A DNA stretch of 64,000 nucleotides from contig NC_087076.1 of the NCBI RefSeq assembly GCF_026151205.1, positions 11,322,902 through 11,386,901 of the forward strand, read 5' to 3'. Position 1 is the stretch's first letter, and the number at the start of each line of letters is the position of its first letter. Under the pieces are notes generated by a model. It was not told where the DNA came from. It made no database searches and saw only the letters and a list, made by a program, of their open reading frames with translations. This DNA comes from Bolinopsis microptera. Its lineage: Eukaryota > Ctenophora > Tentaculata > Lobata > Bolinopsidae. The translations under genes and the position numbers were made by a program. Positions 5,008 to 64,000 of the stretch are shown piece by piece.

Positions 5008-5807
5008 AGCATAGTGATGTACACGTCTACATAGCTGGGAAAGATGAGGTCATAGATGATGGTAAACCCCTTAGAATGAATGAAGAATGGTGCAGTAGCA
5101 AGTTGTTGGGTTCTCTGCTAGAAAGTAGGAAAGATGTCACCAGAAGAATCATGTTAGCCAATGTAGCATTCCAGAACTTCAAGAAGGTCTGGTGCCAGAG
5201 TAAGATCCCCCTACAGAAGAAGCTGAAGGTCTATGAGGCCCAAGTAGTATCTATCCTCATGTATAACTCTAGTTGCTGGGGAATGCCTAAATCGTACTGG
5301 GACAAACTAGATGCATGTCACCGTAACCACCTCAGAAAGATCATGAATGTCAGCTGGCCACGCAGTATGATGTCCAAAGATACCCTCTACAAACAGAGTA
5401 ACTCTATCCCTATGTCTGAGCGTGCTGAGTTATCTAGGTGGAAGATGCTAGGACACATACTGAGGAGCGATGAAAGATCACCAGCTCAAGCTGCGCTGTG
5501 TTTTGCTGTCGAGATGTGTAGTGAAGTTGGTAGACTCGGGGCTCACATACGTAACCTCCTGCACCACCTGAAGGTTGACCTCTGGAAGCGCTTCATCTTG
5601 CTGGAGTCGTATGATGATATTCTCCATTTGAGAGAACTTGCTAGTGACCGTGGTTATTGGAGTAAATTGTTTAACTTTATACTTGAGTACAAGTCAATTT
5701 GATTATTGGGACATATAATTTTACAAAGGATCACGTTTCGGTTCTAAATTATTTTAGGATTGTTGACATTTGTAAGATTGACATGTTTGATAATAAGCAT
5801 AGTGATG
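5008..5807 (+). mobile_element. 5'-truncated LINE insertion, copy 1, with 12-bp target-site duplication
   Basis: An open frame (5076-5702) encodes about 208 residues of the C-terminal (thumb and tail) part of a LINE reverse transcriptase, including 'SILMYNSSCW' and 'RWKMLGHILRSDERSPAQ'. No RT palm or endonuclease is present. The 12-bp sequence AGCATAGTGATG occurs at both 5008-5019 and 5796-5807, bounding the insert exactly. The 3' end before the second copy is GATAATA, a short relic of the element's tail. The insert of about 0.78 kb is therefore a 5'-truncated retrotransposition product. A shorter copy of the same element lies at 53054-53457 in the opposite orientation. The reading frame has no stops, so the insertion looks fairly recent, but it cannot be autonomous. 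Confidence 0.88.
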
Positions 5808-8032: not shown

Positions 8033-11000
8033 TTAAACTTTAAGGCAAGATTCCTTTAAAGCCAACCAGAAAGCTACCGAGTGCTCGTAGTTCAAACACT
8101 CAGGTAGATCGGGTAACTCTGGTTCCTCGTTCTCAGATCTCGCTAACAGAGTCCTCTCTTTGAAGAAGTCCAGACATTCCATTAGCTCCATACCTTCATA
8201 ACTAACACTACCTTCCGTATCCTCTGAGGGTTTCAGGACCATCCAATCTATCAGGAATCGGTGTAACTCCATCTGCAAATAAATTCATTGTTATTCATGA
8301 TTTTGGATTTAATAGCATTACTCCTTCCCGATATTATACATCAGAGTTCCGACCACTGTGAATTGTAAATTATAACAATGTTAATCCAGGAGCATATATG
8401 ATGTAACAGATCATATAACAAATGATTTGAAATCTTACCAGCCATATCTTGATGATCTTATGATTCTTGCCAGTGAACCACTCGTGAGACTCAGGAGGTG
8501 GTGTAGTGACCATATTAATGCTATCAAACGGATCGTAAGTGCTGCGGTAAGACTTGTAGAAGTAGGCCAGGTACCAAGCATCCAACACGTGACACTTCTT
8601 TAGGGTATCTGGTATTGAGTAGTTGGAATGTTCTTTGAAGGACCCAATACGCTCCATAAATCTGATCAAACTCTCGTTAGGGGATCCACTTCCAAGACCT
8701 GCAATTATGATTCCTCTGAATTATCAACAACTATTGCTTAAAATATTTGATACACCACCCATCGAGTGTTTTAATAAAATCAAAATAGAACAGATGTCAA
8801 AGAGTTTAACTGTTTAAATAGCATACATATTACATACTACACATATTAAAAACCCATTATTTCACAATCCAAACTCCAAAATTCGTACCAGCTCTGATGT
8901 AGCCGATAGCAGTAGCCAGTGCCTTCTTAGCTTCATTAGCAGCTCTAATATCTCCAAACTCTATCTTGATAGTATCCGGTATCCTGTGCTGAGGTTCCCT
9001 AGCGTGGAGCTTGTTGCACAGCTCCAACCACGTGACATCCTCACGGTACGTCATCTTGAAGGTGTCGTGATCTGTGAACTGCTTGATGGAGTCTAATATG
9101 GGGTGTACCCCGCCCAGTACCTCGTCCTTTAGGTATCTCTCAAATACTCCGTAAGAGAATCTTACCTCCCTGTGTTTACCTGGCAAGTCAGTTTAGTTAA
9201 TTAATTAATTAAATACAGCAGGTTTAATTAGTTAATACAGCAGGTTTAATTCAGCAAAACAGTGAAACAGTACGCTGGAATGTTCATAATGTAGTATACA
9301 GTATTTTCGCCTCTTACAGATTTGTTAGCTTCAAAATATAATTGAATAACATAAATTGAAGTGAATATTACTGACCGACGAGTCTGACAGAATGAGAATA
9401 TAACAAGAACATGGTAGGTTCTCTCCGGGTCGTAGTCTACGCTGAGAAATCTATCTGACAGTTTGACATTCTTGCGTTTCGTATGTCTAACAAGCTTATT
9501 GTGTAACGCAATCAGGGTCTGAAAAACAAAACCATGTACTAAAAATGAGGATATGCAATGTATTAATCTTTACAAAAACTGTTCTTTGACAGTTTTACAA
9601 TTGGTAAGAAGTCGGCAATGTGAAGTGGGGATGAAAGAGGAGAACAAAGCAACTAACATCAAGCAGATGGAGACAACATATCCCTTCTCTAGCAACAGGT
9701 TCAGGTAGGAAGAGAGACAGTGGCTCATTATCTCTGATATCCTTCTTATTTTTGTACGCTTCTGGGATCGCAAACTTGGTGCTCTCTACATTAATCTCCT
9801 TCCACGCCTGTGAAAACAAAGTAGTTATAATTTCCATTTATGATTCTAAAATGTGCACTGGTTGCTGATACAGCTGAAATGCTATACACAGTACACAAAA
9901 TTAAATGTAGCTATCATTTCAGTTGCTACTGTTAAGATTCTTAATCGGGGTTTTAGTAAATAATACAGTGATTAATATAAAAATTCCGCACCTGAGCCCA
10001 CGCAGCAAATCCTTCTTCCAAGATGGGGTCATCCTTGATAACATCTCTTATTGGAGTATTTCTTGCTTCCTCCAAACTGCTTTTATATGAGTATCGAGAC
10101 AGAAGACGTCTGAAGAAGTCCAATATCTTCGGTAACAGCTGAGGGTGGAGGGGTTCAGACGAAGTAGTTTGATTACCTCGAGTTATAGATGTGGATACTG
10201 GTGGGGAGGTGAAACACATTTGTTTACTTTAATAGTGAGCACATGTTCGGCGAGTTGAGGAGGTGAAACACATTTGTTTACATTTTTAGGGTAAGCACAT
10301 GTTCGGCGGGTTGAAGAGGTGATACACATTTTGTATTATAGAAGGCTTGTAACACTTGTAACGCTTTCTTGTTACCCCCCTTTGAAGGCCCCGAATTATT
10401 TTCTGAACGAAAGCTCAAAAATAACCGAGAAATCGACCTTCTTATTAACTCATTTTGATGACTATTTCTGACCTAAAATTGCACGAAAAATCGATTTAGC
10501 TAGGTTTCAGAACCTATAAACACTTCCTTATCCCTAAAAATTGATGTTTTATAGCTAATACGAGCAACAAGCAACATATGTTTTGATCCTTCGGTTCTAC
10601 TCATGACCTAGGCAGTTAAGCTGAAACCGACAGATCGAGGCAATCCTCACCTTAACTGATAAAACTGGTACTAACACACTTTTCAGATATAAATGTTCTT
10701 TGCGATATACGTTTATTGCAGCTTTGCAACTTGAGTGAAGACCAGAGTACGAAAACACACAGCAGGTAAGCAACTCACTTTTTGTGACTGTTCATCACGA
10801 ACATTCTGATCCTGCAACATATGAACAAGGATATCGTCTCCTTAACAAATCGAACAGGTACTATCACAATTTCCAGAGCACAGCATGATAACAAATTCAA
10901 AAGAAACACAATGAAGGTAGGTTACCAACACCACAATATAACAATCATACTAACAACTGAATTAAGTTTATTCTGACGACGGGCAGCCCTGATGTGCTCC

Positions 11001-14000
11001 GTGATCCTCAACGAGCGACCACTTGTAATAGAGGTGGTATGTCACGTGACACCGAGCCGTCCAATCACAAACAGGAAGAGTGACCAGATCGATATCGTGT
11101 GTTTACTTTCCTTATCTTTATTTGACCCTCTGTTCAAATTGTTATCTCTATCACATCTCGGCTCGGCAAGGTCCGCGTGCAATATCTGCACCGCGGTAAA
11201 CACGCCATGATTGTTGTACTTATATAACCGTGCCCATTGCTCACCATTGCCCACCTACAATACAAACTGTTGGGGGGGGGGGGGGGGGAGGGGGGGGGGG
11301 TTGAAGATAAACAACCGATCTTGATAGTGTGTTGGTCGCTCCTCCAACTGACTGTGATGCTAACTGTTCAATCATGAACGGAACATTAACATATATCCAT
11401 GAGTGCTCCTTTGCTTAACTTAGACAGTAAGTGTTTGAAAACGGAATATAGGACACGACTTCACTGACAAGAACTGTATGTTCCAGGAGGAGGCACTTGC
11501 AGTGTACAGGAGGACAAGCATGGTTATACATGACAGATTTGAAGTACTAGTTCAACATGGTGCAGTTCATTTTTACCAGGTTAGACACTCAAAATTTCAA
11601 TTTGTGCTGTGTAATCAGTCATTGCCGTTTTAAATATGTAAACTTGGAATCATTCTCACAATTGTAATAAGAGTTTGTGTAACTTTAAATGTTGCACTTG
11701 CCCTCAAAGTCAATGGAATTCATTTTGTGTGCGGGGTGTTTATTTTAGATGAGATACGGAAGTATTGATAAAATCGATAACGGGTAATGGGTGCGCTGTT
11801 GAAATGGTTCAGTGGACCTGTGGACCCCTCTTTAGTTCGTTTACCAGCTGCATTTTATTTCGGATCATGGGTAAGAGCTTTGCTGTATATACTTGTACTG
11901 ACAGATATTTTAGCTGGTACCGTACATACATATTCGTATCGTATTTTTGGCCACATTGACGGTCCTTTACATTTAGGCCCGCAAACTGAAAACGTACTCC
12001 ATCGTTAACTGATGCTACTGCAAATAACACTGTTTGTCTGTTTAAATCCATGCTACCACATGATTACTGTGTTCGTGCTTAAAAATTAACTGTGCATGTA
12101 GCGACGTGAATTTAATTTCCTCTTAGTCTTAGAATCTAAATATGCCGTTTTGGTGCACGTAACGTGCGTAATCCGCGTCCGGTTCGTTCAGTGGACCCGT
12201 CTTTAGATCGTTTACCAGCTGCATTTTATTTCGGATCATGGGTTAGAGCTTTGCTGTACACTATTCAAATTTCTATTTAAAATCCTGCATGCAGTAAGCA
12301 GTTACTCAGAGCCAGCTAGAGAACGTGTTGTAACGTCACGTAATAGTTGAGTGTAGAGTGATTATTCATCGTCCGGTTAGTTAAGAATAAGCGGAATAAA
12401 AAGCGAATTAAATTTCAGGAGTTACACTTAACATCCCAGAGGTGATGTGGAGCAAGACTCAGTTCACGCCGGAAGAAGTAGCTGCCAGCAGAAAAGTAAG
12501 CATCGCCCGCATTCACGTGGAACGCTCCATTGGCTATCTGAAGCGGTACAAGATTTTGGGAAACAAAGTTGTGGCGAAGATATTGCCTTATCTGAGCGAC
12601 ATCGCATTCGTGTGTGCCCATTCGTGTGTGCCCAACTTGTCAACCCTGTTTTTTTAAGGGAGGTGGACAGTGATTTTTTTTAAATGACCAGGTCTACCTA
12701 AACTTGTCGAGCTTGCTGAATAGGAGGAGCGACCGACACACTATCAAGATCGGTTGTTTATCTTCAACCCCCCCCCCCCAACAGTTTGTATTGTACGTGG
12801 GCAATGGGTACGGTTATATAAGTACAACAATCACACTATTTCAAGTTCATGACGTTATCATGGCGTGTTTACCGCAGTGCAGATATTGCACGCGGACCTT
12901 ACCGAGCCGAGATGTGATAGAGATAACAATTTGAACAGAGGGTCAAATAAAGATAAGGAAAGTAAACACACGATATCGATCTGGTCACTCTTCCTGTTTG
13001 TGATTGGACGGATCGGTGTCACGTGACATACCACCTCTATTACAAGTGGTCGCTCGTTGAGGATCACGGAGCACATCAGGGCTGCCCGTCGTCAGAATAA
13101 ACTTAATTCAATTTTTAGTATGATTGTTATATTGTGGTGTTGGTAACCTACCTTCATTGTGTTTCTTTTGACTTTGTTATCATGCTGTGCTCTAGAAATT
13201 TTGATAGTACCTGTTCGATTTGTTAAGGAGACGATATCCTTGTTTATATATGTTGCAGGATCAGAATGTTCGTGAGGAACAGTCACCAAAAGTGAGTTGC
13301 TAACCTGCTGTGTGTTTTCGTACTCTGGTCTTCACTCAAGTTGCAAAGCTGCAATAAACGTATCGCAAAGAACATTTATATCTGAGAAGTGTGTTAGTAC
13401 TAGTTTGATCAGTTAAGGTGAGGATTGCCTCGATCTGTCGGGTTCAGCTTTACTGCCTAGGTCATGAGTAGAACCGAAGGATCAAAACATATGTTGCTTG
13501 TTGCTCGTATTAGCTATAAAACATCAATTTTTAGGGATAAGGAAGTGTTTATAGGTTCTGAAACCTAGCTAAATCGATTTTTCGTGCAATTTTAGGTCAG
13601 AAACAGTCATCAAAATGAGTTAATAAGAAGGTCGATTTCTCGGTTATTTTTGAGCTTTCGTTCAGAAAATAATTCGGGGCCTTCAAAGGGGGGTAACAAG
13701 AAAGCGTTACAAGTGTTACAAGCCTTCTATAATACAAAATGTGTATCACCTCTTCAACCCGCCGAACATGTGCTTACCCTAAAAATGTAAACAAATGTGT
13801 TTCACCTCCTCAACCCGCCGAACATGTGCTCACTATTAAAGTAAACAAATGTGTTTCACCTCCCCACCAGTATCCACATCTATTAATTCTATTTATTATT
13901 ATTAATTATTAGTTATCAACTCTATAAATTGAAGAAGGTTTTGACTGGAACTAGCCAACATTTTCACCATCAAATTTGAAAGGCCAATCACTGATCAAAT

Positions 14001-27400: not shown

Positions 27401-30400
27401 GAAAATGGCCTTTCTCTTGTATCAAATATGTATTAAGAAACTTACCAATGAATCCTATTTTGGTCTGATCGGAGGAGCCACTGTTTTCTAGCAGGGAGTG
27501 TAAGGCTTTTAAAGGCATTTTCTTGGAATCCTCCGCAAGACCTATCTCATCCAGCACCACAACTGGCATTAACCTGGCCAGATAGAATACTTAATATACT
27601 GAATTTGTAAGAAATAAATAATATTTCTGATGAAAAAACAAAACTTAAGCAAGAAGAGAGTAGAGTACAGTAGAGTACAGTAGAGTACTGTAGAGTACAG
27701 TAGAGTACTGTACAGTAGAGTACAGTAGAGTACAGTAGAGTACAGTAGAGTACAGTAGAGTACTGTAGAGTACAGTACAGCACTGTAGAGTACAGTACAG
27801 TACAGTACAGTACAGTACAGTACAGTACAGTACAGTACAGTACTGTAGAGTACAGTACAGTACTGTAGAGTACAGTATTTCAACTTTACCTGCGGTTCTG
27901 AGTGTTATTTTCATCTGAGATAAACTTCTTCGCCGACTCAAACGTCCTTTCGATACCTTCAGCTTCTGATTGCGGCGAGCACTGAAAATAGGAGATCGTA
28001 TTACACAAATATTCCAAACTTTGTAGCAAACTTGTTATCTGACGCCACGTGGAATTATCCATTCTAATTGTAATCTAACAAAATATTGCTGAGAAAATAT
28101 TACATCACAAGACTAAGTTATCAGCATAATATTGAAATGAAAGTAGAGTAAAACATGTAATAACATTAGTAATGTGTGATGTAGCCGTCAGTTTGTGATA
28201 GTAAGTACCACTGGTTAGATGTGTAATGTGTATAAAATGTGTAACTTAATACAAATAACAGCCGTTCTTCAGAATAATGACAGTGTTTACGCGTGATAAA
28301 TGTACAAATATGCTCGTGAGCAGGAACACAGTGTATTCTACTAACATTTTACAAAAACGTTAGGAATATGTTGGGTATCTTATTAAACACTGTTTCATTA
28401 GACACTGTTTCATATTACATGTAAAAATCGGTATCACTGTCAGAAACTGACAGTAAAAATCAGCGATCCAAGAAAAAGTACGCTCTTAAATAGCCTGACT
28501 TCAGTTAGACTGGCGCTAAGAGAGCTTGTGACGAAGAGTAAAACGTAGCAAAAAAACTTACTTGGAACGAGGTCATGTGAATCTGACAGAGATGTTCGAG
28601 AAGTTGAGAGTTAGAGCTCAGTCCGGACATACAACCCTTGACGATAAGTTTAGCAAGACTCTTACTGCTGCCTGGGTGTCCCACTATAAACAGAGGAATG
28701 TTCAGCTCAATACACACCACCTGTAGAGATTGGAGTATTAGCGACTATTAAACTGATAAAGTAATCTTGATATTGTCACTTCTATCATTATAGCAAATCA
28801 GATGCTCTTAAAGCTCACCATCATAAAGATGTTTTCTCTAAGAGCCTCATTCTCAGCAACATCCTCCTGAAACCCAACACCAGAGTTGTGGAGCATCTCG
28901 TGTAGTAGGACTCGCTGGGTCCGGGTGATGGTATTTAGTAACTGGTGTCCTCTTACGTTAGGAAACGGGTTCCTGAGGCGAGCAGATGTTTTAATAAGTG
29001 TTTGTATGGTATTTTAAGGATGAAATAGACTATCCAAAAAGTAATGGTATTACTAGATTCACTGTTTGGAGTAGATAGGAAAAAAATTCGAACCGGAACA
29101 TCAAATTTCTAAAGTTCTAACGAGGATACAGCTTCCAGCTCATTTCACTTTGAAAAAGGAGACAAACCTAAAGTACGGAGCAACAAGATCAAGGTACTCC
29201 ACCCTCGCACTTATTCTGACATAGTAGCACACTCCAATAGCATTGATAGCTGATATAACTACCAGTGGGAAGTCAGATAAGTTATAGTTATCAGCCGTTC
29301 CAGCTTTGGCCGCTTGATCTTTAGCTAACTCAGCAAATATGGGGGTCATTTTCATGAACCATTTGAAAACCTGAGAAAATAAAGGATAATTATTAATTGG
29401 AATGTCTTCAAAGCTTCAAGCAACGCTGTAACACTCTTAATTGTAACTGAAGTAACAAATTCAGTAACTATGGTGACAATGGTAACGTAGAACATTCAGA
29501 AGTCATCATTAAACCTTAGAACTACCAATAACTTTTTACAGAATGAAGTTTAGACAAATGGATTAAAAGGTATCCAAAAAGTACATGTCTTGCAAGACTT
29601 TTGAAACACCCTGTACTATTCAGTTATTTCAGATCAGGCACCTCTATAAATCTGTTGACATCTCTGAGAGACACGAAGCTGCACTGATCGGTCCGAGTTC
29701 TGAGAACATCTTGACAACCGGAAATAATGTCAACCAGTCCCCAGCAGGAAGCTCTCGTTAATAGATTCCTCAGATAAACTAGACTTTATTATCAGTGTGA
29801 TGTACTGTTTTTCTGAAATAATACGAGTATTTAGTCCACAGACGAGGGTACCGAAATACAAACTCTAACCGTTTTTAGGTTTTTATGGGGTGATGGTAAG
29901 CGCAGCGCAATTAGCGAACTTCATTGTAAAGTTGTAATTATAGCGGAATTATATTACTATGGAGTTTTGAATCACAAGTGACCAAATAGGCAAATAAAAC
30001 AGTTGCAATACCAGTAGTGTTATCCATGGAACCAAAGTCCCAAATGAGGGGTTTCAAGGAGGGAGGGAGAGGGTGAACTCTGTAGACAAGTTCTCGGAGA
30101 GGGATGTCTCCGATACGATCTACCACATCTGCTTCTCCAGTTCTATAACCTAACCCTGCTTTCTTCAGCAGCTCAATCATGTCCTGGTAAATAAAACAAT
30201 TGAAATTGACCCGAATGTTTCTGGTATTTTAGGGAAATTCCAGAAGCAAAAATTGAAATTGACGATTCTTCATTCTTCCATATACCGCAAGTTTGAAAGG
30301 TCAAACATTAAAATTGTAGTTGACTGGCCAACTTTATGAAATAATAATAAGAAAGATTCTGGACTAACCGGTGTGTGTTTTCTGTATGGATTGACAGCTG

Positions 30401-33400
30401 CGATGAATCGAATGGATGAGTTGATTCTGCGGCCATTGATGGTGTGGTTACACATGATCTCTCTGATCAGATCAATCTCTGATGTAGCATTGGCTTCGTC
30501 AAAGAAGACAATGGTTTCGAACTTTTCATCAATACCCTTGTTGAACAAAGCCTGTTCCTCTGCCTCTGCTATTTTAGCACTTATCATTGCTGATGTTATG
30601 CCGCCGTGCACTCTCAATGTTATAAGATTATTGACATTCTCCGGAACATTTTCCTCTTCATACTTGCTCAAAACACTCTGTTTAATGATGTCGCACATGA
30701 AGGCAATCAGTCTGGTTTTACCACATCCCGTCTCCCCCATGATCACCACCGGAATGTTTGATCTCATTCTCATATGTATCGCTAGAATCTTGATCGTGTT
30801 ATCCAATGTTAGTTGGTAATCAACAGCTGCTTTAACTTTACCATATCTCAGATCAAGGACAGATTCCAGTTTGTTCATCAACAACTCTGGAGTGTAAGCG
30901 CTGTAATCATCTTTAAATGTTACCCTCTGACCTCGGAGTCTACCCAACAAATCCTGGTTCATAAAGTCTTTAACTCTGATCTCATCGGTGACCACGTCTA
31001 CAAGGTCACCAGGAGCTTGGATCTTGAAGCCGATGAAGGTGAAACTCATTCCGTCGTTGTTAAAGAAGAGGTAAGGATGGAATGTTTTGTCCCATAGTTT
31101 CTCCAGAGCGTGTTCCTCCAGGACGTCAGCTCCTTCGCTGATATTAAGAGATCTTGTTGCAAACTCTTCGCTCATCGTGATCATGAACTTCACTACGAAA
31201 GCGTTGAACTGAGCCCCGAGCTCTGGAGCTAGGATTGTGTTAGTAAAACTGCAGTTCTCGTAGCAGAGCAGCTGTGTGTTGAGGAAGCAGACGAAGTTAT
31301 CAAGTTCTCGCCATGATGGGTCCTTTATCTTTACAAATCTCAAGAAGAGATCAACACATCCTTCTTCGTGTTCAGTTCCGATCAGTGGCTGTGGGGATTT
31401 TATATATTTAATAGAGTAAAAGGTTAACGTAAGCTAAGGGTATATTGCTATACAAAACGTTCAATGATTATGATAGGTTCTGACGTAGAGAATACAATAA
31501 CTATTAAATGGAAGATCTTAATACGGAACACCCAAACAAAAATGTAAAATAGTAATCATGTAATAAAAGTAATTTTAAAGTATTAAATGCAATAAACAAT
31601 TTCTTATTCAACTTCTTTATCAATCACGAAACTGAACTAACATTGGCAAAGGAGAAGGTAAAGTTAGCCATGGTGCCTTCAGTAAGGCGGTACTGCAGCA
31701 AGTATTGATAGACCCTTTGCCACTTTTCTGATTTGAACTGTTTTGCCTGACAAATTTTAAATATTATTTTAGATAGGGTAATGCAACTATTCAAGGTTTA
31801 ATAAATAAAAAGTGCTAAATTTACAAGATATATCAACATGATTTAAAAATAAATAATTCGTATTAAATCATACCTCCAGAAGCGTCTGATTATGTTGTGT
31901 TGTCTGTTTAGTTCTGTAAATATCCAGCGATTGTTGGGGACTCAGACAGTCGTAGACAGGCAAGAAGTTTGTGAAGTCTATGGGGAAGTTGCGGATAAAG
32001 GGTCCAGAGGAGAAGAGGCCCTCAATAAGGACGTAGTCACCATTGAATGGTCTAAAAACTCTGCCCGCACTGTCTGTTATCTTCTTTAGAATCAGCAACT
32101 GCAAAAATATTGCAACATATTGTACATTGTTTTGATAAGTGGTTTTCATGCTTAAAACTTACAAATCCTATTACAAAACTGATTTTAATGTTTCAAGACA
32201 AGAGCAAAATCCTAATAATCATGGGAAAATAATATGTTAAAAATAAATACCTCGAAAATAAAAACGTCAGCCCCCTCTCGAACAGAAGGTGATACATCAA
32301 CCAAGTACATGGTATTCCTGACAGGATCTCTTTTGTGGCTCAGAAACTCTTTAACGATGATATTCCGATCACAATCCCGCTTGTGTATGGGAACACAGCA
32401 TAAGGTGTACTGCTTGGCAAACTCGTCCAGAATTAGGTTTGCTTTTCTTGTTTTTCCGTTTCCGGACCCTTCGGACTGAATAAGTCTTCCAGACAGTCTG
32501 TTTGGATCGCATCTGCATTGATCATTCTGTAGGATTGTCTTTTCTGTGAACTCTTTTATTCTCCTGATGTCTCCAAGTGGTACCTGTTTGTGGCGGGACA
32601 CGTAAGAAGACGCTATCTCACTTGGAACGTTCTCCACAGTAATCACCAGTAAGAGGTAGTTGAGCCGTGCTGATGTGCTGTTTTTAGACAACCTCTCGTA
32701 CTCGTCCACAAAGTGTTTGTTCAGCTGATAGGACAGCTTCTCAGGGCTGACTAGACAGTTTATTTGTCTGAAGTTGTTTGAAAATATGGCTCGTCGGAGG
32801 AAGACGCTAATTTGTTCTTCTGTAGTGTCCTGTGTGCAACAGAGGACCTCCTCCGCAGTGGGTACTCGGTTAGCGTGCATAAACAGAGACAGAACACATC
32901 TGAACATGTCTCGAGCAGGAACTTTCAGCAGAGTTATCATTCCACGTCCAAGATCGTAATCTTTTAGAACCCCCTTGTCTTCTTTTCTTTTTTGCATTAG
33001 TGTTGTCAGTATTTTCCCCAGTTGGTCTATGCTCAGCCTGAAAAATTAGGGTTTAACGTTTCTTAATTCTTACACAAATAGTTTTTGTTTTGACCGTTGA
33101 ATTTGTTGAAATGAAAATTGTCCCTCTAGGCTCTAACTTGACAACCTGGATTTTATGTCAAAAAAATGTTTTAAAATATATCATGTTATCCTTAAATTGC
33201 AGTAATTCTAGATATTATGTCATGGTTCTGAATATAATATTGTGTCAATAAAAGCGCTTCTTAAGAAAATGAAGTCATATTATCTGCGTCACTCTCTGTC
33301 AGTCTTATAAACTTACAAATCTCTTTCGTGAGTGCTTTCAAATTCTTCTTGGATAATGTATATCTGCCTCTTCACATCTTCCATTACGACCTGCAGATAT

Positions 33401-55385: not shown

Positions 55386-56477
55386 GTGTACTTCAAGGTC
55401 GGGCCCTTAATACCGATCATTAGCACCCGTTTTACCTTTACCTTATTAGCGGCATATCATTACTGTCGCGGAAGTAAAACAAACATCTTTCTACGATTCG
55501 CAGAAAGTGTTAAAACTCTCACTAATACACTTGGACTACAACACCGGATTACCAGTGGAGGAGGCAGGACTGAGCTGGCCTCGTGTGGGATTGGCACACT
55601 TGCGCAGGCTTCACAGCCTTGCTGCGATGGTGCTGGTTCCTATCGGGGCTGTGCTCGTTCAGCAACCACCAAGGAATCCACCACTACTACACCTACACTA
55701 CAACACCGGATTACCAGTGGAGGAGGCGGGACTGAGCCGGCCTCGTGTGGGATTGGCACACTTGCGCAGGCTTCACAGCCTTGCTGCGATGGTGCTGGTT
55801 CCTATCGGGGCTGTGCTCGTTCAGCAACCACCAAGGAATCCACCACTACTACACCTACACTACAACACCGGATTACCAGTGGAGGAGGCGGGACTGAGCC
55901 GGCCTCGTGTGGGATTGGCACTCTTGCACAGGCTTCACAGCCTTGTTGCGAGGGTGCTGGTTTCAGTCGGGGCTATGCTCGTTCAGCAACCACCAAGGAA
56001 TCCACCACTATTACCCCTATACTACAACTCCGGATTTACAAAACAATCATGACTGATAGCGGTAATGAGATGTTTCAACTGTGTAACACAGATGAGACAT
56101 TGATTTTCGCAGAGCGGATCAGGTTTCCTGATTTACGCTTAACATCAGACATTATTGTGATTAAAGGACCTATTTCAACAACATTGCGCGGGAACGCGCA
56201 CATAATCTCCCATATACACAATAACTCATTATCTATCAATCCTACCCCACCGTGGAATAGGATACAGATCACCAACATCTGGGAGGCAGTGGCTGTGCAG
56301 CTACATGAAGGTGGGGGCCCGTCGACGGAGTTTAAACAGAGGCAGCGGATCTGGGTGGATGTCTCACCTTCGGGTGAGACATTCTTAGAGAAACACAGTT
56401 TTCTCCCGGAGACGCTGGTTGCTGCTATTCGACTTCGACCAGCCCCCCGACACAGTGCCCAATCCAAAAGGTCCTAG
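55386..56477 (+). CDS. LINE ORF1 candidate with 54-residue tandem repeats
   Basis: A 363-codon frame. Residues about 50-213 are three tandem 54-residue units (162 bp each), beginning 'LQHRITSGGG' and ending 'TTKESTTTTPT'. The rest, from the inner ATG at 56049 ('MTDSGNEMFQ'), is a 142-residue non-repetitive protein ending at 56477. I cannot tell whether translation starts at 55386 or at 56049; if the latter, the repeats are 5' untranslated sequence. No CCHC knuckles are present, unlike many ORF1 proteins of the I/Jockey group. The last 59 nt overlap the start of ORF2 in another frame. Confidence 0.55.
   Translation: MYFKVGPLIPIISTRFTFTLLAAYHYCRGSKTNIFLRFAESVKTLTNTLGLQHRITSGGGRTELASCGIGTLAQASQPCCDGAGSYRGCARSATTKESTTTTPTLQHRITSGGGGTEPASCGIGTLAQASQPCCDGAGSYRGCARSATTKESTTTTPTLQHRITSGGGGTEPASCGIGTLAQASQPCCEGAGFSRGYARSATTKESTTITPILQLRIYKTIMTDSGNEMFQLCNTDETLIFAERIRFPDLRLTSDIIVIKGPISTTLRGNAHIISHIHNNSLSINPTPPWNRIQITNIWEAVAVQLHEGGGPSTEFKQRQRIWVDVSPSGETFLEKHSFLPETLVAAIRLRPAPRHSAQSKRS
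55530..56020 (+). repeat. Three tandem 162-bp units in the 5' region of the LINE
   Basis: Unit starts (CTACAACACCGGATTACCAG) occur near 55538, 55700 and 55862. Units 1 and 2 are almost identical; unit 3 differs more. Two different frames are open through all three copies, since 162 is a multiple of 3. LINE 5' regions often contain such repeats that carry promoter activity. Confidence 0.9.
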
Positions 56478-59400
56478 TACCCGTCCGGTGAGGGTAACTG
56501 CAGGTGCTGCACGCCACGTCCCCAATACCAAAAAAACAGGTAAAACTCATCATGAATATTACTCTGTTACTCAAATCAACCTTAAACGCAAGTACAACGC
56601 TTGGAAAACCCTGCTGGTGAACACTCATGGCAGGAAAAATCCTATTGTACTAGCGACTGAACCATACACTAATAACAAACACCTAATTCCACCAATAAGC
56701 AAAGAACTAACCGAGTATTATTACAAAGTTGGGGACATTAGGCCCCGTGCCGCCATAGTAATACACAAAAACCTAGCTGAAAAAAGTTGGGAACTATCGC
56801 AATTCACAACCCCGGATCAAGTTGCTATTAAGATTCAACTTAGCTCGACAGAAGTAATTCTGGCAGCTTCGTACATGGATATTAATGGACCAGCTCCATC
56901 CCACGAAACCACACCTCTAGCCAAATACGCTATAGACAACAATTTACCACTCATAATAGGCTCTGACACCAACTCCCAACACACTCTTTGGGGTAACAAG
57001 TTGTGCAATAGAAGAGGAGAGGAACTACTTGATTTCCTCTCGTCGCTAGGGCTCTCCTGTTCCAACAAAGGTTCAACTCCAACATTCCTCAACTCACGAG
57101 GTCATAATTCCATCATTGACCTCACTATTACCAACCAACTGGGGGCTGAACTGATCAGTAACTGGCACGTTAGTGATCTTTACTCAAACTCCGATCACAG
57201 ATATATCATGTTCGACATTACTTCTGGTCCCAAAAAAGAACCAAGACAAATACGCCTAGTCAAGAACACTGACTGGGCGAAATTTGACGAGATTCTTTAC
57301 AACAACAATGATCTCCACAACACCTGCGTTAACACACCACACGACATTGATCACAAAGTTAACACCATTAATACTGCTCTCCGAGCTGCCTTTGAGGAGG
57401 CATGTCCCATTACTTACATCTCCAGCGCTGTCAGAAAACCACCCTGGCTAACTCGAGAAGTTGAGGAAGCACAGAGGGGTATAAGACGCAAACTCATCAC
57501 AGCTCGTCGAATCAAAACTGATGCTTCGTGGCTCGCTCTTAGAGAAAGCAACAAGCAATACAACAAGATCCTGTCCAACTCCCAGCGCAATGCGTGGCGG
57601 AAATTCTGCGCAGACACAGAATCGGTTAAGGAATCTGGAAGGATGAACAAGATTCTGAAAACCTGTACTGACACCAATAACAAACTTGAAGCCGTTTATA
57701 AACCAAATGGCGAACTCACCAAAAACGCAGAGGAGACACTGGAGGTCATGACACAAACCCACTTCAAGGAGAGTGTTACTGATCCGCCAGTTCCGCCTCT
57801 CTGCCCCTTACCGATCTCCACAGACTTACTAGACAAAATCTACAGCCCTGAAAGAATCGAAAAGGCTCTCCTATCCTTCGATCCCTTGAAGGCTGCAGGA
57901 CCTGACACTCTAAAACCTATCATATTCCAGAAAGCCTGGGCTCATATCAAAGACATAACAAAAAACATTATGACAAAAAACCATGAAACGCAACACATCC
58001 CAACTTTGTGGAGGGACTCTCTTGGAATCTTTCTCCCTAAGCCTGGAAAAACCGACTACAACAAAGCTAAGTCATTTCGAACGATCACTCTTTCGCCCGT
58101 GATGTTAAAGTTGCAGGAGAAAGTGATCTTATGGCATATGCAACATGACCTCAACATAGCTAATGATATCAACAAACGACAATTCGGCTTTAAAAAGGGC
58201 TGCTCCACAGAAGCGGCACTTCATAAAGTTACTCACACCATTGAGCGCAGAATAGCCAAGAAAGGATATGTCCTAGGTGTCTTTCTAGATATAGAGGGCG
58301 CCTTCGACAATGTCTCGTTCAAGGCTATCTCTGAAGCAGTCAAGGCTACGAAAGTGGACTTGGCTACTGCACAGTGGATCATCAACATGGTAACCAATCG
58401 ATTCATCACACTAAATCATAAGGATAAGTCGAGAAGGGTACGGATCAGGCGAGGTTGCCCCCAAGGAGGCATTCTCTCTCCTTTTCTCTGGAATCTGGTA
58501 GTCGACGATCTCCTTTCCTTTACCGCAAAAGACATCCCGGGTTACCTGCAAGCCTTTGCGGATGATCTGTTGTCTCTAGCGGAAGGGGATGATTTAGACA
58601 TCATCTGGGACCGAACATGCAAAACTATTAAAACGATAGAAAATTGGTGCAGAACCAAAGAGCTATCTATTAGCGCCCTTAAAACTCAGATAGTCATGTT
58701 TACCTGGAATAGTAAGTGGACTCTAAGACCTATAACAGTTGGCAACAACATTATAGGTCTTTCCAAGTCTGCTAAATTTCTAGGAGTCACCTTGGACAGC
58801 AAACTCAATTTCAATGAACATATCATCAACACCACCAAAAAAGCCACGGCATCCCTCATGCAATGTCGAAGAGCTGTCGGCCCCACATGGGGTATGAGCC
58901 CTAAAACATGCAAATGGATGTACACGGCTGTCATCCGTCCAATCCTATCCTACTGCTGTAGTATATGGATCAGGGCCACTCAAACGGACTATAACGCGAA
59001 GAAACTCAAACGTGTGCAGGCATTGGCACTCAGAATGATGTCTGGTGCCATGCCAAGCACACCTTTTATCGCATTGAATCACCTCACCGAAACTTCTGAC
59101 ATCATACTGTTCCTGCAAGGCGAAGCAGCAAAGGGTGCGGCCAGGCTACAAGCTTATGGCAGCCTCACTCTTGAAACTATCGCCTTCAGGAAGGGAACTA
59201 TCAAAAATCATACCACTATCAACAAACAATTCATGGCAGACCTCATTATCCCACCTAGAGCAACGAGAGACCTAACAACACCAACCATGATGCTGGGACG
59301 GCACTTCACCGTCACAACTCCTGGAGCCGATAACACTGAATATAGAAATTCACTTCAAAACACCATTGACAACATTACCAGTGAAACGATCACCTGCTAC

Positions 59401-60264
59401 ACTGACGGGTCACTCACAGACTCAGGATGCGGGGCTGGCTATATCATCACAACTGACAACAATAACACCACCCTTGAAGAAAGATCATTCAAGCTCCCTG
59501 ATTATTGCACTGTTTACCAAACAGAGCTCACCGCCATCATTGAAGCTTGCAAATATCTCTCTACCTATACCAACACACACATCATCATATGGTCTGACAG
59601 TCTCTCATCTATACAAGCTATCTCTGCGCTTTCAACGCGGAGTAGAACTACAAGAGACTGTTACGACTCTCTTAATGCACTCGGATCCAACAACACGCTA
59701 GAGATACGATGGATTGCAGCACACATCGGATTGTGGGGGAACGAAAAAGCAGATGAGCTGGCCAAGCTTGGTACAATCAGTGAATCCACTTTGAAGTGTC
59801 CAATTCCTCAATCCTACATCAAGCGTCAAATCGACAACAAAGTCAACAGACTGAATCAGGAAACTTGGTTAACTGACGGTCCCAGACACACCAAACTGAC
59901 ACTCGGCCACAAGCATACCAAAATCATCAAAAACCTCAACACTACACTCAGCAAAAACAGACAAGATTACAGAACTGCAGTTCACCTCATCACGGGTCAC
60001 TGCGGCTTAAACAAACACCTTCACACCATTTGCAAATCAAACACCAGTGCTTGTCCTATGTGCGGCGACGGAGAGGAAACTGTCTCACACTTTCTTGGAC
60101 AGTGTCCGGCTATTGCCCAAATTAGAGGTCAATATTTCCAGGACTACTACCTCTCTGTCAATGACATATTCGACAACCAACACATCACCACAATTGTCAA
60201 TTTCGCAAACCGCACCAAACGCTTAATTGTGCCGGAGGAGCTGGATCAGACCGGGGTGACTTAA
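56419..60264 (+). CDS. LINE ORF2: endonuclease, reverse transcriptase, RNase H
   Basis: 1281 codons without a stop. Residues about 50-270 form the APE-like endonuclease: 'LATEPY' near 77, 'GSDTNSQHTLWG' near 181, 'SDHRYIMFD' near 258. RT spans about 490-760: 'FLDIEGAFDNVS' near 622, 'RRGCPQGGILSPFLWN' near 680, 'AFADDLLSL' near 711. RNase H is at about 990-1120: 'CYTDGSLTDSG', 'YQTELTAI', 'WSDSLSSIQ', 'HIGLWGNEKADELAK', so D, E, D and D are all kept. The C-terminal 'CPMCGDGEETVSHFLGQCP' is a Cys/His motif. All catalytic residues that I can name are present. The first ATG (56419) lies in the end of ORF1, so coupled or frameshifted translation is likely. Confidence 0.95.
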   Translation: MLLFDFDQPPDTVPNPKGPSTRPVRVTAGAARHVPNTKKTGKTHHEYYSVTQINLKRKYNAWKTLLVNTHGRKNPIVLATEPYTNNKHLIPPISKELTEYYYKVGDIRPRAAIVIHKNLAEKSWELSQFTTPDQVAIKIQLSSTEVILAASYMDINGPAPSHETTPLAKYAIDNNLPLIIGSDTNSQHTLWGNKLCNRRGEELLDFLSSLGLSCSNKGSTPTFLNSRGHNSIIDLTITNQLGAELISNWHVSDLYSNSDHRYIMFDITSGPKKEPRQIRLVKNTDWAKFDEILYNNNDLHNTCVNTPHDIDHKVNTINTALRAAFEEACPITYISSAVRKPPWLTREVEEAQRGIRRKLITARRIKTDASWLALRESNKQYNKILSNSQRNAWRKFCADTESVKESGRMNKILKTCTDTNNKLEAVYKPNGELTKNAEETLEVMTQTHFKESVTDPPVPPLCPLPISTDLLDKIYSPERIEKALLSFDPLKAAGPDTLKPIIFQKAWAHIKDITKNIMTKNHETQHIPTLWRDSLGIFLPKPGKTDYNKAKSFRTITLSPVMLKLQEKVILWHMQHDLNIANDINKRQFGFKKGCSTEAALHKVTHTIERRIAKKGYVLGVFLDIEGAFDNVSFKAISEAVKATKVDLATAQWIINMVTNRFITLNHKDKSRRVRIRRGCPQGGILSPFLWNLVVDDLLSFTAKDIPGYLQAFADDLLSLAEGDDLDIIWDRTCKTIKTIENWCRTKELSISALKTQIVMFTWNSKWTLRPITVGNNIIGLSKSAKFLGVTLDSKLNFNEHIINTTKKATASLMQCRRAVGPTWGMSPKTCKWMYTAVIRPILSYCCSIWIRATQTDYNAKKLKRVQALALRMMSGAMPSTPFIALNHLTETSDIILFLQGEAAKGAARLQAYGSLTLETIAFRKGTIKNHTTINKQFMADLIIPPRATRDLTTPTMMLGRHFTVTTPGADNTEYRNSLQNTIDNITSETITCYTDGSLTDSGCGAGYIITTDNNNTTLEERSFKLPDYCTVYQTELTAIIEACKYLSTYTNTHIIIWSDSLSSIQAISALSTRSRTTRDCYDSLNALGSNNTLEIRWIAAHIGLWGNEKADELAKLGTISESTLKCPIPQSYIKRQIDNKVNRLNQETWLTDGPRHTKLTLGHKHTKIIKNLNTTLSKNRQDYRTAVHLITGHCGLNKHLHTICKSNTSACPMCGDGEETVSHFLGQCPAIAQIRGQYFQDYYLSVNDIFDNQHITTIVNFANRTKRLIVPEELDQTGVT

Positions 60265-60480
60265 AGTATTATTTCATATGCTGTCTCGTCTCGTTTTACT
60301 TTTCCAAACCCAGCTGGCATTAAGCGTATCATTTTGACTCATTTAATAACATCTTACACCATCCTCCACCAATCACTCTGATTTCACCGGCAACCTTCCC
60401 CAAGGTTGCCACACCCCAGAGGTAGGCAGAGCATCTCAATGCTATCCTCTCGTGGGCTATCTTGGCCCAGCCTCTCTTAA
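60265..60480 (+). other. LINE 3' untranslated region
   Basis: A 216-nt stretch between the ORF2 stop and the A24 tail. The terminal part (CCCCAGAGGTAGGCAGAGCA onwards to CCCAGCCTCTC) can form an imperfect stem, a possible reverse transcriptase recognition structure. No AATAAA is present. Confidence 0.6.
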
Positions 60481-60545
60481 AAAAAAAAAAAAAAAAAAAA
60501 AAAATCCCCTGTCTGTAAAGTATAAAATATGTTACACCCTGTTTA

Positions 60546-61340
60546 TTATGTACTTGTTACTAAAAAACGCTTGATGGTTTCTAACTCATCTCTCTTGTTA
60601 ATGTTAGGTTTGAACTTCAAAATAAGCATTGCTTCTGCAATCTTTCTTCTAGCTGTGTTGCTTTCTGTTTTTAAAATCTCAAATTCTAAATTGGGTTCTG
60701 ACCCCCTATGTAAACTGTAGTAATGAATAGCAAAAGCTTGACTTGTGTTAGAAGGAGTTAAAGGCAATTTAGCATATCTTAGGTGCTCTCCGAGCCTATC
60801 ATGTGCCCTCCTGCACGTCTCACCAATATAAATATTATTACAGATTTTACAGGTAATCTTATACACAACGTTCTTCACCTCACAATCTTTATTTTCAGTT
60901 ATTAATAAAGGACAAATTTTACAGGAGTTAATAATACAGGTTCTCTTATCATACGGTCTGTTATTGCACACAATATTTCTTAGTTTTCTAGCTGGGGAAA
61001 ATATAACTTTGATAGGTAAATTGTTCTGTTTAATATGATTCCTAATTCTGTTACTGATACTGTCTGAGATAAAATCTAACTTAAGCACTGTTCTGTTATC
61101 CTCCCTATTTCTATTACTAATACTACTACGACGTCTGTTGGAATAATTTCTGGGTGTTTGATACCCGTTTCTAGTCATGAGACGGTCTAAAATGCTGTAT
61201 GAATGTTCTCTCTCCTGAGGTCCTGACGAGATCTTGTCCGCTTCTTTATACAGGTTGATCACGGTGTTCGTCTTCACAGATTCTGGGTGACATGAATTCT
61301 TGTGAAGTGTGATGTCTTTCTGCTGTGGCTTACGGTACAA
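60546..61340 (-). pseudogene. Penelope-like polyprotein C-terminus: end of RT and GIY-YIG endonuclease
   Basis: The frame starts inside the protein at 'LYRKPQQKDITLHKNSCHP', the conserved block just after the RT of Penelope-like elements; the first codon of the open frame is TTG, not a real start. Further on come 'KICPLL' and 'VVYKITCKICNNIYIGETCR', then 'AHDRLGEHL' and a catalytic-type Glu in 'EAMLILKFKPNINKRD'. This is the GIY-YIG nuclease: paired tyrosines of VYK and YIG, Arg in the helix, and Asn near the end. The frame is intact over 264 codons, but the RT is absent. On the family: GIY-YIG nicks the target for priming. Confidence 0.88.
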
Positions 61341-61400
61341 GCGACAAAAGGATCCTACGCCATTGTGCTTTTTATGAAGAAATACGTCAGTAAATAATTC

Positions 61401-61860
61401 ATCTCAATTCATGAAGTTTGAAAGAAGTTACAGTAATGCGCACAATTTGGGGAGTGTGCTTTTGGCGGAGATATAAACTGCACTTATTCTGAAATAGTAT
61501 TAATTCGATTATGTATTGCTTAAAAAGATTTTAAAAAAGCTACTTCGCAGCTTTTTGCATCGGTTAAGTAATATATTTCGGAAAAATACTTTTACTGGAT
61601 ATGATGGTGCTCAGTTGTTACCAATCCAAAGCTAACCTTGAATGTTGTCATACGTTGTATGCGAGCCCTAAAAACTTTTTGAAATCGTGTTTTGATATAA
61701 TAGCCTGATACGCGCAGCCCATAAACAATAAAATGGTGTTTTGTTTTATGTTTATTTGATGGACGATGCCCACCGTGATTGACGTTGTCTTACGTTTTAA
61801 TACTTTCAACACTACTATATAACAAATAATTTGAGGTATGACAATGGAAAGTCCGCTACG
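61401..61860. other. Spacer / 5' region before the PHD-RT frame
   Basis: AT-rich with no recognised coding. Short upstream ATGs (61838, 61843) lead to a stop overlapping the main start at 61861, so they would form a minimal upstream frame if transcribed. Confidence 0.4.
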
Positions 61861-64000
61861 ATGATAACAAACAGCGGTGAAGACAAGACAGCAGAAACAG
61901 AGAGTGTACAGCTACCAGACACCTGTGATCCGGAGACATCTCAACACCTGTCTTCTGAAGGTATTGCTTATGTTACACCTGTTGTTTCTCTGTTATGTGG
62001 AATCTGTCCCAAAGATCTTATATCAGAACCTTGTAGCATTCAATGTGATTCCTGTAAGACATTTTTCCATCCTAAATGTCTTGGCAAGTCTGCACCAGTG
62101 GACAGTGAACGGTGGGTTTGTCAGAAATGTAGGGATAATGTAGAGAACCAGCAGATCATTGATGCTCCTGACGAGGAAAATGATATCTGTTATAACTGTC
62201 CCGTATGTAGGAGTGTTGTGGGGGATTCGGATAAGGCATTGGGTTGTGATGGCTGTGAAGAATGGTTCCATGCACCTTGTTTGTTTATCAGTGAAACCGA
62301 GTACGCTGAGATGGATAATGAAGAGATATGGTTTTGTGATACTTGTCAAGCAGTGAAAGCAAACAAAATTAATTGGGGCTCAATGGTTGGTGAAGAGTTG
62401 ATAGCTGAGAAAGTCCAAGCTGTTTATCAAGAGATGGTGACATGGAGAAAGAATCTTTTCCTAGTTCCCAGAGGTAAATCAGGTAGCGACTTTATAAAAG
62501 AACTGACTCGGCTCATCCTCTTATTTGCAGATGCTACCAAGTGGGAAAGGCTATCGTTCGCACTGGTTCATATCTTTTTGCCAATCATGTTGCAAAAACC
62601 GTCAAGCAAGTCAAAAGCAAGAGACCATGTAACATATCTCACCAAGCGTTTGGTTAAATGGAAAAATGGAGAACTTGACGATCTAATGATGGAGTGCAGG
62701 AGTATTCAGAAAGCCTTGGTGCAGCAACAAAAAATCAGCGAGGAATCCAGGAAGAAGAGTTTCTGCCGACTAATGCTCCTTGGGAAAGTTAAACAAGCCA
62801 CCAAATATGTTGACAGTTCCAATGACACCTTAGGAGTTCACAGCCTAACAGCAAACATTAAACAGGTCCTTGGGGAGAAACACCCTCCAGCTGTTAAAGC
62901 AGATCCAGTTGTTCTGCACCCTCACAGTACTCCTCCACCTCAGGAAGTGATATTTGAGAGGATTGACGCAGAGACTGTCAAGAGGGCTTGTTTATATTTG
63001 GATGGATCAGGCGGCCCAACACTAACGGACTCAGATTTGTGGAAGCATATCATCTGCAGCAAATCATTTGGCAAAGCATCAGTGACACTTGCTGAGTCTA
63101 TAGCAATTGTTGCAAGGCGCCTTTGTAGAGAAGATATCCATCATAGCTGTCTGAAAGAGTTCACTGCATGCAGATTAATCCCTCTTGATAAAGGCCAGGA
63201 TAAGAACGGGAAACCTGGTGTAAGACCAATTGGAATCGGCGAGATATTGCGCAGAATCATTGGAAAAGCAGTTATAATGTCTTTCAAAACTGATATACAA
63301 TATGCTGCTGGCCCACTGCAGACATGTGCAGGGCTCAAATCAGGAATAGAGGCTTCCATTCATGCAATGAGACAGATCTGGGAAGACAGTGACACTGAAG
63401 CAATACTACAGGTTGACGCTGATAATGCGTTCAATCGTCTTAATAGAGAAGCAGCCCTTCACAATGTTCATGAGATCTGTCCTCCGCTCTATCAGTATCT
63501 AAAGAACCACTACCAAAAGCCAGCAGACCTGATCATTAATACTACCGAGGACCACTACCAACTTAAGTCTGAGGAAGGTTCAACTCAGGGAGATGTAGCA
63601 GCAATGGCATTCTATGCGTTAGGGATCAAGCCTCTAGTAGATGACCTTGCCACAGCCTCCAAGCCCAGTGTTTGCAAACAGTCTTGGTATGCAGATGACA
63701 GTAGTGTTGGTGGAAAGATTGAAGGTATTAAGATATGGTGGGATACGCTGCTGGAGCAAGGACCAAAGTATGGATATTACCCAAAAGCCAGTAAGACCGT
63801 CCTGATTGTGAAGAATAGCGAGGACCTAGATCTTGCGCAGAAAGTATTCTCAGGCACTGGTATTAAAATCGAGTCTGAAGGAGAACGCCATTTGGGTGCA
63901 GCAATTGGCAGCGAAGTTTTTAAGAACAAATATGTCTCAGATAAAGTCCATAAATGGTGTCAGGACATCAAGCTGTTGTCATCAATTGCTATTGAGGAGC
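61861..64000 (+). CDS. Tandem-PHD-finger reverse transcriptase (retroelement ORF), incomplete at window edge
   Basis: The frame is open for 713 codons from ATG 61861 to the window end. PHD1 ligands are C46, C49, C62, C65, H70, C73, C87 and C90. PHD2 ligands are C113, C116, C129, C132, H137, C140, C159 and C162: two complete C4HC3 fingers. A helical linker leads to an RT: 'VRPIGIGEILRRIIGK' (454-469), 'QVDADNAFNRLNR' with D519, 'EEGSTQGDVAAMAFYALG', 'WYADDSSVGG' with D612 and D613, and 'GYYPKASKTVLIV'. All three catalytic Asp residues are present. No endonuclease is visible before the edge. Many cnidarian genomes have RTs with this 'VRPIG-GE-LRR' and 'D-NAFN-LNR' pattern (from memory), but I cannot name the clade. 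PHD fingers usually read histone H3 tails. Confidence 0.85.
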   Translation, partial: MITNSGEDKTAETESVQLPDTCDPETSQHLSSEGIAYVTPVVSLLCGICPKDLISEPCSIQCDSCKTFFHPKCLGKSAPVDSERWVCQKCRDNVENQQIIDAPDEENDICYNCPVCRSVVGDSDKALGCDGCEEWFHAPCLFISETEYAEMDNEEIWFCDTCQAVKANKINWGSMVGEELIAEKVQAVYQEMVTWRKNLFLVPRGKSGSDFIKELTRLILLFADATKWERLSFALVHIFLPIMLQKPSSKSKARDHVTYLTKRLVKWKNGELDDLMMECRSIQKALVQQQKISEESRKKSFCRLMLLGKVKQATKYVDSSNDTLGVHSLTANIKQVLGEKHPPAVKADPVVLHPHSTPPPQEVIFERIDAETVKRACLYLDGSGGPTLTDSDLWKHIICSKSFGKASVTLAESIAIVARRLCREDIHHSCLKEFTACRLIPLDKGQDKNGKPGVRPIGIGEILRRIIGKAVIMSFKTDIQYAAGPLQTCAGLKSGIEASIHAMRQIWEDSDTEAILQVDADNAFNRLNREAALHNVHEICPPLYQYLKNHYQKPADLIINTTEDHYQLKSEEGSTQGDVAAMAFYALGIKPLVDDLATASKPSVCKQSWYADDSSVGGKIEGIKIWWDTLLEQGPKYGYYPKASKTVLIVKNSEDLDLAQKVFSGTGIKIESEGERHLGAAIGSEVFKNKYVSDKVHKWCQDIKLLSSIAIEE

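Follow-up and report, generated by a model that had tools for sequence, protein, structure and literature searches.

Which kind of element joins two PHD fingers to a reverse transcriptase (RT) in one protein, and what could the fingers do there? The question is raised by a stretch of 64,000 nucleotides from the ctenophore Bolinopsis microptera (contig NC_087076.1), hereafter the window, in which an open reading frame (ORF) on the plus strand encodes PHD finger 1, PHD finger 2, a linker and an RT. The ORF extends from 61834 to 63999 with the first Met at 61861 and is cut by the window end. All 722 codons from 61834 onwards are open and no frame break occurs inside the window; at the base composition of positions 60001-64000 an open frame of this length has a chance probability of about 4e-21. 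In Pfam the encoded protein (window protein) matches PHD in two stretches (7.7e-13) and RVT_1 at 1e-7, scoring 32.4 bits where the cut-off is 29.6, and NCBIfam gave nothing useful. The fusion of PHD fingers with an RT, which a first-pass annotation had read from the letters of the DNA, is real: both parts lie in one open frame, each finger has eight zinc ligands, and the three catalytic aspartates of the RT (D528, D621 and D622) are present.

All features of this protein are encoded on the plus strand. The first finger (61996..62130) has the ligands C55, C58, C71, C74, H79, C82, C96 and C99, the second (62197..62346) the ligands C122, C125, C138, C141, H146, C149, C168 and C171. They are followed by an N-terminal extension or linker (62359..62973) and by the RT core (63202..63810; RVT_1, residues 457-659), which is supported by Pfam and by profile comparison. 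Motif A (VDADNAFN, with D528) is located at 63412..63435, motif B (TQGD) at 63583..63594 and motif C (YADD, with D621 and D622) at 63688..63699. The motif VRPIGIGEILRR, formerly described as unusual, proved to be RT motif 2, for which R2 has the similar RPITIGSILLR. In the alignment motif 2 (RPIGIGEILRRIIGK, 63223..63267) stands opposite 'RPITIGSILLRL' of R2, and it was also aligned against RPITIGSILLRLFSR and RPLTIGSIVLRLFSR of two R2 proteins (PDB 9nl3 and 9nl2).

A degenerate DNA pattern for motif 2 matches the window once and none of 100 shuffles; in the viral contigs it had no match, and in the genome contigs two, at the loci L001 and L002. No relative was found among the viral contigs scanned, where 1 and 51 pattern-matching stretches in two scans encoded none, nor among phages and plasmids searched with the window protein or the L001 protein (1e-5; 1e-2). 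Both loci from the scan of genome contigs were compared with the window protein: L001 is a true relative, and L002 (Sinomonas) reached 26 bits and was taken for a chance match. L001 is the only relative found. In invertebrate genomes, members of the family are commonly present as entries without a name.

L001 is an ORF of 1076 amino acids on a 3592-base contig of a Candidatus Poribacteria MAG ('unfiltered'). Across 557 aligned positions, which cover linker and RT, it is 40% identical to the window protein (E 5e-124). The linker is conserved between the two (WRKNxFxVP, LQKPSxxSKxxDH, and WKxGxL) and has no Pfam match. The RVT_1 score of L001 (27.1) is below the Pfam cut-off of 29.6, and in NCBIfam it matched a group II RT at 0.033. 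In place of PHD fingers, the N-terminal stretch at L001:2-226 is rich in cysteine (CMACCSCARRCVCKRCAC..., with many CxC and CxxC); no Pfam match and no PHD fingers were found in the visible part of this N-terminus, and the N-terminal module may therefore be exchangeable. The contig begins inside the ORF, so that a finger further upstream is possible.

Despite the name of its record, L001 is probably sponge DNA and not bacterial, an assignment based on its occurrence and on the contigs that accompany it. Of 84 genomes of its phylum just one was positive, that with L001 itself, and LINE-like contigs are present in the same bin as well as in other bins. The base composition is uninformative on the origin: the GC content of L001 is 0.44, and two further contigs from its bin have 0.41 and 0.43. 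A further search gave at least ten loci, of which those resembling LINEs, on G001, G034 and G059, were looked at more closely. Five contigs (L012 in the same bin as L001; L026, L028, L029 and L030 in other bins of the phylum) are LINE-like with two ORFs, and ORF1 has a Pfam PHD match in L026, L028 and L029. A contamination of public genome records with sponge DNA is the probable source of the LINE-like contigs in these genomes.

About 400 residues of L001 lie beyond the part that is matched to the window protein, and they bear on the earlier remark that no endonuclease is in view. For the window this is true, as Pfam matched no nuclease in the window protein; but the visible part stops about 100 residues past YADD, and the remark may thus reflect the window edge only. 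In the window copy, a part that cuts DNA may follow shortly after that edge. LINEs with a restriction-like endonuclease (RLE) have, behind the RT, a linker, a CCHC knuckle (CX2-3CX7-8HX4C) and then the endonuclease, a PD-(D/E)XK variant that has RH at the first helix and its catalytic Lys within KX2KY, the second Lys of which is variable (PMC5678591). After its RT L001 shows, in this order, CACGTSFSVNHALSC (from residue 863), RH (886), RLD (D933), a second D in FLDVRI and KRRTY. This order matches the published layout, and L001 appears to carry an RLE-like series of residues. The details differ: LD stands for PD, and the knuckle spacing, testable in L001 only, is CX1CX7HX3C, which fails the published pattern, and the strict regular expression for the knuckle had no match in L001; behind KRRTY no GXW was seen by eye. 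A relaxed expression for the whole order was found in 0 of 20000 shuffles, a count that overstates the case because the expression was relaxed and written after the L001 sequence had been seen; taken singly, the relaxed knuckle was reached in 154 of 20000 and the nuclease part in 65. The C-terminus of L001 had no Pfam match, including recombinase and GIY-YIG, and against PDB sequences one chance-level match (0.37); the whole L001 protein likewise gave one such PDB match (0.12). Two structure predictions of the protein had a mean pLDDT of 30.8 and 32.5, which is too low, and were kept out of the fold search.

For the placement of the RT, a profile of the window protein and L001 was scored against other RTs. 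It reached 76 (E 5e-10) with a LINE set composed of R2 stretches and other LINE RTs, three of each, 55.7 with R2 alone, 51.7 with APE LINEs alone and 36 with group II RTs, and 20 column shuffles reached at most 20 (LINE set), 25 (R2) and 22 (group II); in all comparisons R2 was represented by its RT stretches only. The group II profile contains one sequence (L005) for which the wrong stretch had been picked and which was left out of both trees; a further group II locus (L011) was unused, and the N-masked L027 was used neither for the trees nor for comparing fingers. When the PDB was searched with the two-sequence profile, PHD fingers and chance-level matches came up, and no RT. With hhalign, the two-sequence alignment gave a weak result against the neighbouring LINE alone (probability 3.5%). 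In trees of 14 and 18 RTs the window protein and L001 are paired with an ultrafast bootstrap of 100%; the pair stands beside R2 at 69% and 77%, respectively, and its branch is longer than 3 substitutions per site. Mainly the profile scores indicate that the RT is of LINE type, closer to LINE than to group II RTs, and within the LINEs it leans to the R2 side. Because the reference RTs of the trees came from R2, other LINEs and group II and not from NeSL, HERO, R4, CRE or Utopia, no clade name is given.

Taken together, the visible ORF is best explained as roughly the first two thirds of a LINE-like (non-LTR) retroelement protein of the RLE type, which in its complete form would consist of an N-terminal zinc module, the conserved linker, the RT, a zinc knuckle and an RLE, with PHD fingers replacing the zinc finger and Myb of R2. 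We hold this explanation to be reasonably probable. With R2 and the other RLE LINEs (R4, NeSL, HERO, CRE, Utopia) the protein shares a LINE-like RT, the motif 2 RPI.IG.IL.R as in R2 and, in L001, a knuckle and an RLE-like residue order after the RT. A separate ORF1 was not seen either, because the plus strand from 60265 to 61830 contains no other ORF of at least 80 amino acids. The protein differs from these elements in the two PHD fingers, in a linker of its own and in the long branch, and L001 additionally in the atypical knuckle spacing and in LD for PD. It was not filed in the R2 group because zinc finger and Myb were tested and are absent (neither Myb nor a C2H2 finger was matched in the Pfam search of the window protein) and because the RLE fold is unconfirmed.

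An origin from another class of retroelements, with a tyrosine recombinase (DIRS-like), Penelope-like or derived from group II, is improbable. The very long RT branch would fit such an origin, and in the topology test the tree with group II as sister is not rejected (AU 0.41), and neither is that with R2 as sister (AU 0.55). The profile score for LINEs is far above that for group II, though, and neither a recombinase nor GIY-YIG follows the RT of L001 in Pfam. A GIY-YIG ORF does lie about 0.5 kb upstream of the PHD-RT ORF; it is encoded on the opposite strand and therefore belongs to a separate element. As a nuclease of the PHD-RT element it is ruled out by this minus-strand location.

Equally improbable is a host gene that arose by domestication, or an isolated chimera, in which an RT-derived sequence would have been joined to PHD exons and would now be immobile. 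It agrees with the single copy seen, as a second copy of the PHD-RT ORF is absent from the 64-kb window. The frame of 722 codons without introns, the adjoining retroelements (56419-60264 and 60546-61340) and the retention of a complete RT and an RLE-like end in L001 argue against it.

The best match of PHD2 is Pygopus (1.5e-9), followed by TAF3 (1.1e-6). By pairwise score it reaches z 18-19 with Pygopus, 16.5 with TAF3 and 6.6-13.3 with the four ORF1 fingers of LINE-like contigs. Pfam matches PHD in three of these four ORF1s, where L026 alone exceeds the curated cut-off, and not in the fourth (L030). PHD2 has kept W144 (CEEWFH), two residues ahead of the zinc-binding His, which we take to be part of the methyl-lysine cage of Pygopus and TAF3 fingers. 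The resemblance seen concerns the sequence and this Trp, and Pygopus and TAF3 are host chromatin proteins, unlike the retroelement ORF described here; neither of them is known to contain an RT. Histone reading by the fingers is suggested by the Pygopus/TAF3-like PHD2. For PHD1, a role as histone reader is doubtful because the presumed position of the cage Trp is occupied by Phe (CKTFFH) and the closest fingers are TAF3 by pairwise score (z 11.1) and the RIM2 finger by phmmer (4e-5).

PHD fingers coupled to a LINE RT are also a feature of CR1/L2 elements of the APE type, where PHD is found in ORF1 or in a single ORF (PMC4120745). Forcing the pair into a CR1-like set, our own label for five LINE RTs (L012, L026, L028, L029 and L030), was rejected by the AU test (p=0.023) and not by KH (0.058) or SH (0.072). 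A placement in a described PHD-bearing LINE clade, which the first-pass annotation had named as speaking against its reading, is hence disfavoured by AU and left standing by the other two tests. The RT is probably outside the PHD-bearing CR1/L2 LINEs. That the window protein is a CR1/L2-type LINE whose APE was lost or has escaped recognition is the least likely of the readings considered: the published PHD elements and the Pfam PHD matches in ORF1 of L026, L028 and L029 (only the first over the cut-off) speak for it, whereas the AU test, the closer likeness of PHD2 to Pygopus/TAF3 than to the four ORF1 fingers, and the lack of an Exo_endo_phos (APE) match before the RT in Pfam, where ORF2 of L026 matches Exo_endo_phos_2 at 1.3e-10, speak against it. 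The window protein also differs from the PHD-bearing CR1/L2 LINEs in having two fingers within the RT ORF itself.

Under the preferred explanation as an RLE-type LINE, one protein would carry out RLE-driven target-primed reverse transcription (TPRT). R2 proteins find their target by means of N-terminal zinc fingers, Myb and RLE (PMC12503042). In place of this DNA-recognition end the PHD fingers might dock the complex on H3 tails, which is the simplest guess; alternatively, they might interact with a partner protein or contribute to the assembly of the RNA-protein particle. Chromatin-guided integration by way of the fingers, as had been proposed for this locus, is a fair hypothesis. More tentative, and rather doubtful at present, is the view that in a lineage of R2-type LINEs a tandem histone reader has taken over from the sequence-specific module for DNA binding, whereby an RLE-driven TPRT would be aimed by nucleosome marks such as H3K4 methylation near promoters. 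Should the fingers really aim this element, it would represent a natural RLE retrotransposon guided by chromatin and not by sequence. It would then also offer a further example of the exchange of N-terminal modules in the RLE LINE group, and the idea of PHD targeting in LINEs (PMC4120745) would become directly testable in an R2-like architecture, which is reported to be already in use for gene insertion.

PHD domains in LINEs are already published, and an R2-like PHD fusion is not claimed here as unpublished. For the CR1/L2 elements a targeting role was suggested, with no functional study known to the authors of the article (PMC4120745). An article on Utopia (PMC4640811) does not contain the word PHD, and PMC11331408 has PHD together with RT and RLE, where PHD may be a degree. 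The term 'PHD finger' is absent from the best 25 of 101 publications on related terms, and in the wider literature, among the matches listed, titles and abstract openings show no such fusion. A literature search joining PHD finger with RT, restriction-like endonuclease and non-LTR retrotransposon, with most subscription journals and Repbase outside its scope, found none, and no publication carrying the motif strings of the window protein was found.

Several further elements are present in the window. The GIY-YIG ORF beside the PHD-RT ORF (60546-61340, minus strand, with an open tail to about 61404; Pfam 1.5e-5) is presumably a 5'-truncated Penelope-like element; the 21 open residues ahead of it look to us like the end of an RT, with no library match. 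At 56419-60264 on the plus strand lies a LINE ORF2 that appears intact, with Pfam matches to APE, RT and RNase H. It is preceded by an ORF (55386-56477) that contains about three tandem copies of a 162-base unit (55520-56036) and in which Pfam recognised nothing. Further LINE ORFs have left remains at 169-2284 on the minus strand, as two overlapping frames with RVT_1 matches of which 169-1290 matches DUF6451, and at 5076-5702 on the plus strand with a weak DUF6451 match under the cut-off. Weak MCM/AAA ATPase matches, likewise under the cut-offs, at 30270-31343 (minus strand) may belong to an exon of some large gene of the host. A tandem unit of 56 bases is found at 10206-10331 and at 13737-13863, about 3.5 kb apart and by eye in opposite orientation, possibly as the arms of one DNA element, and a 10-base tandem repeat (AGTAGAGTAC) extends over about 22 copies at 27659-27877.
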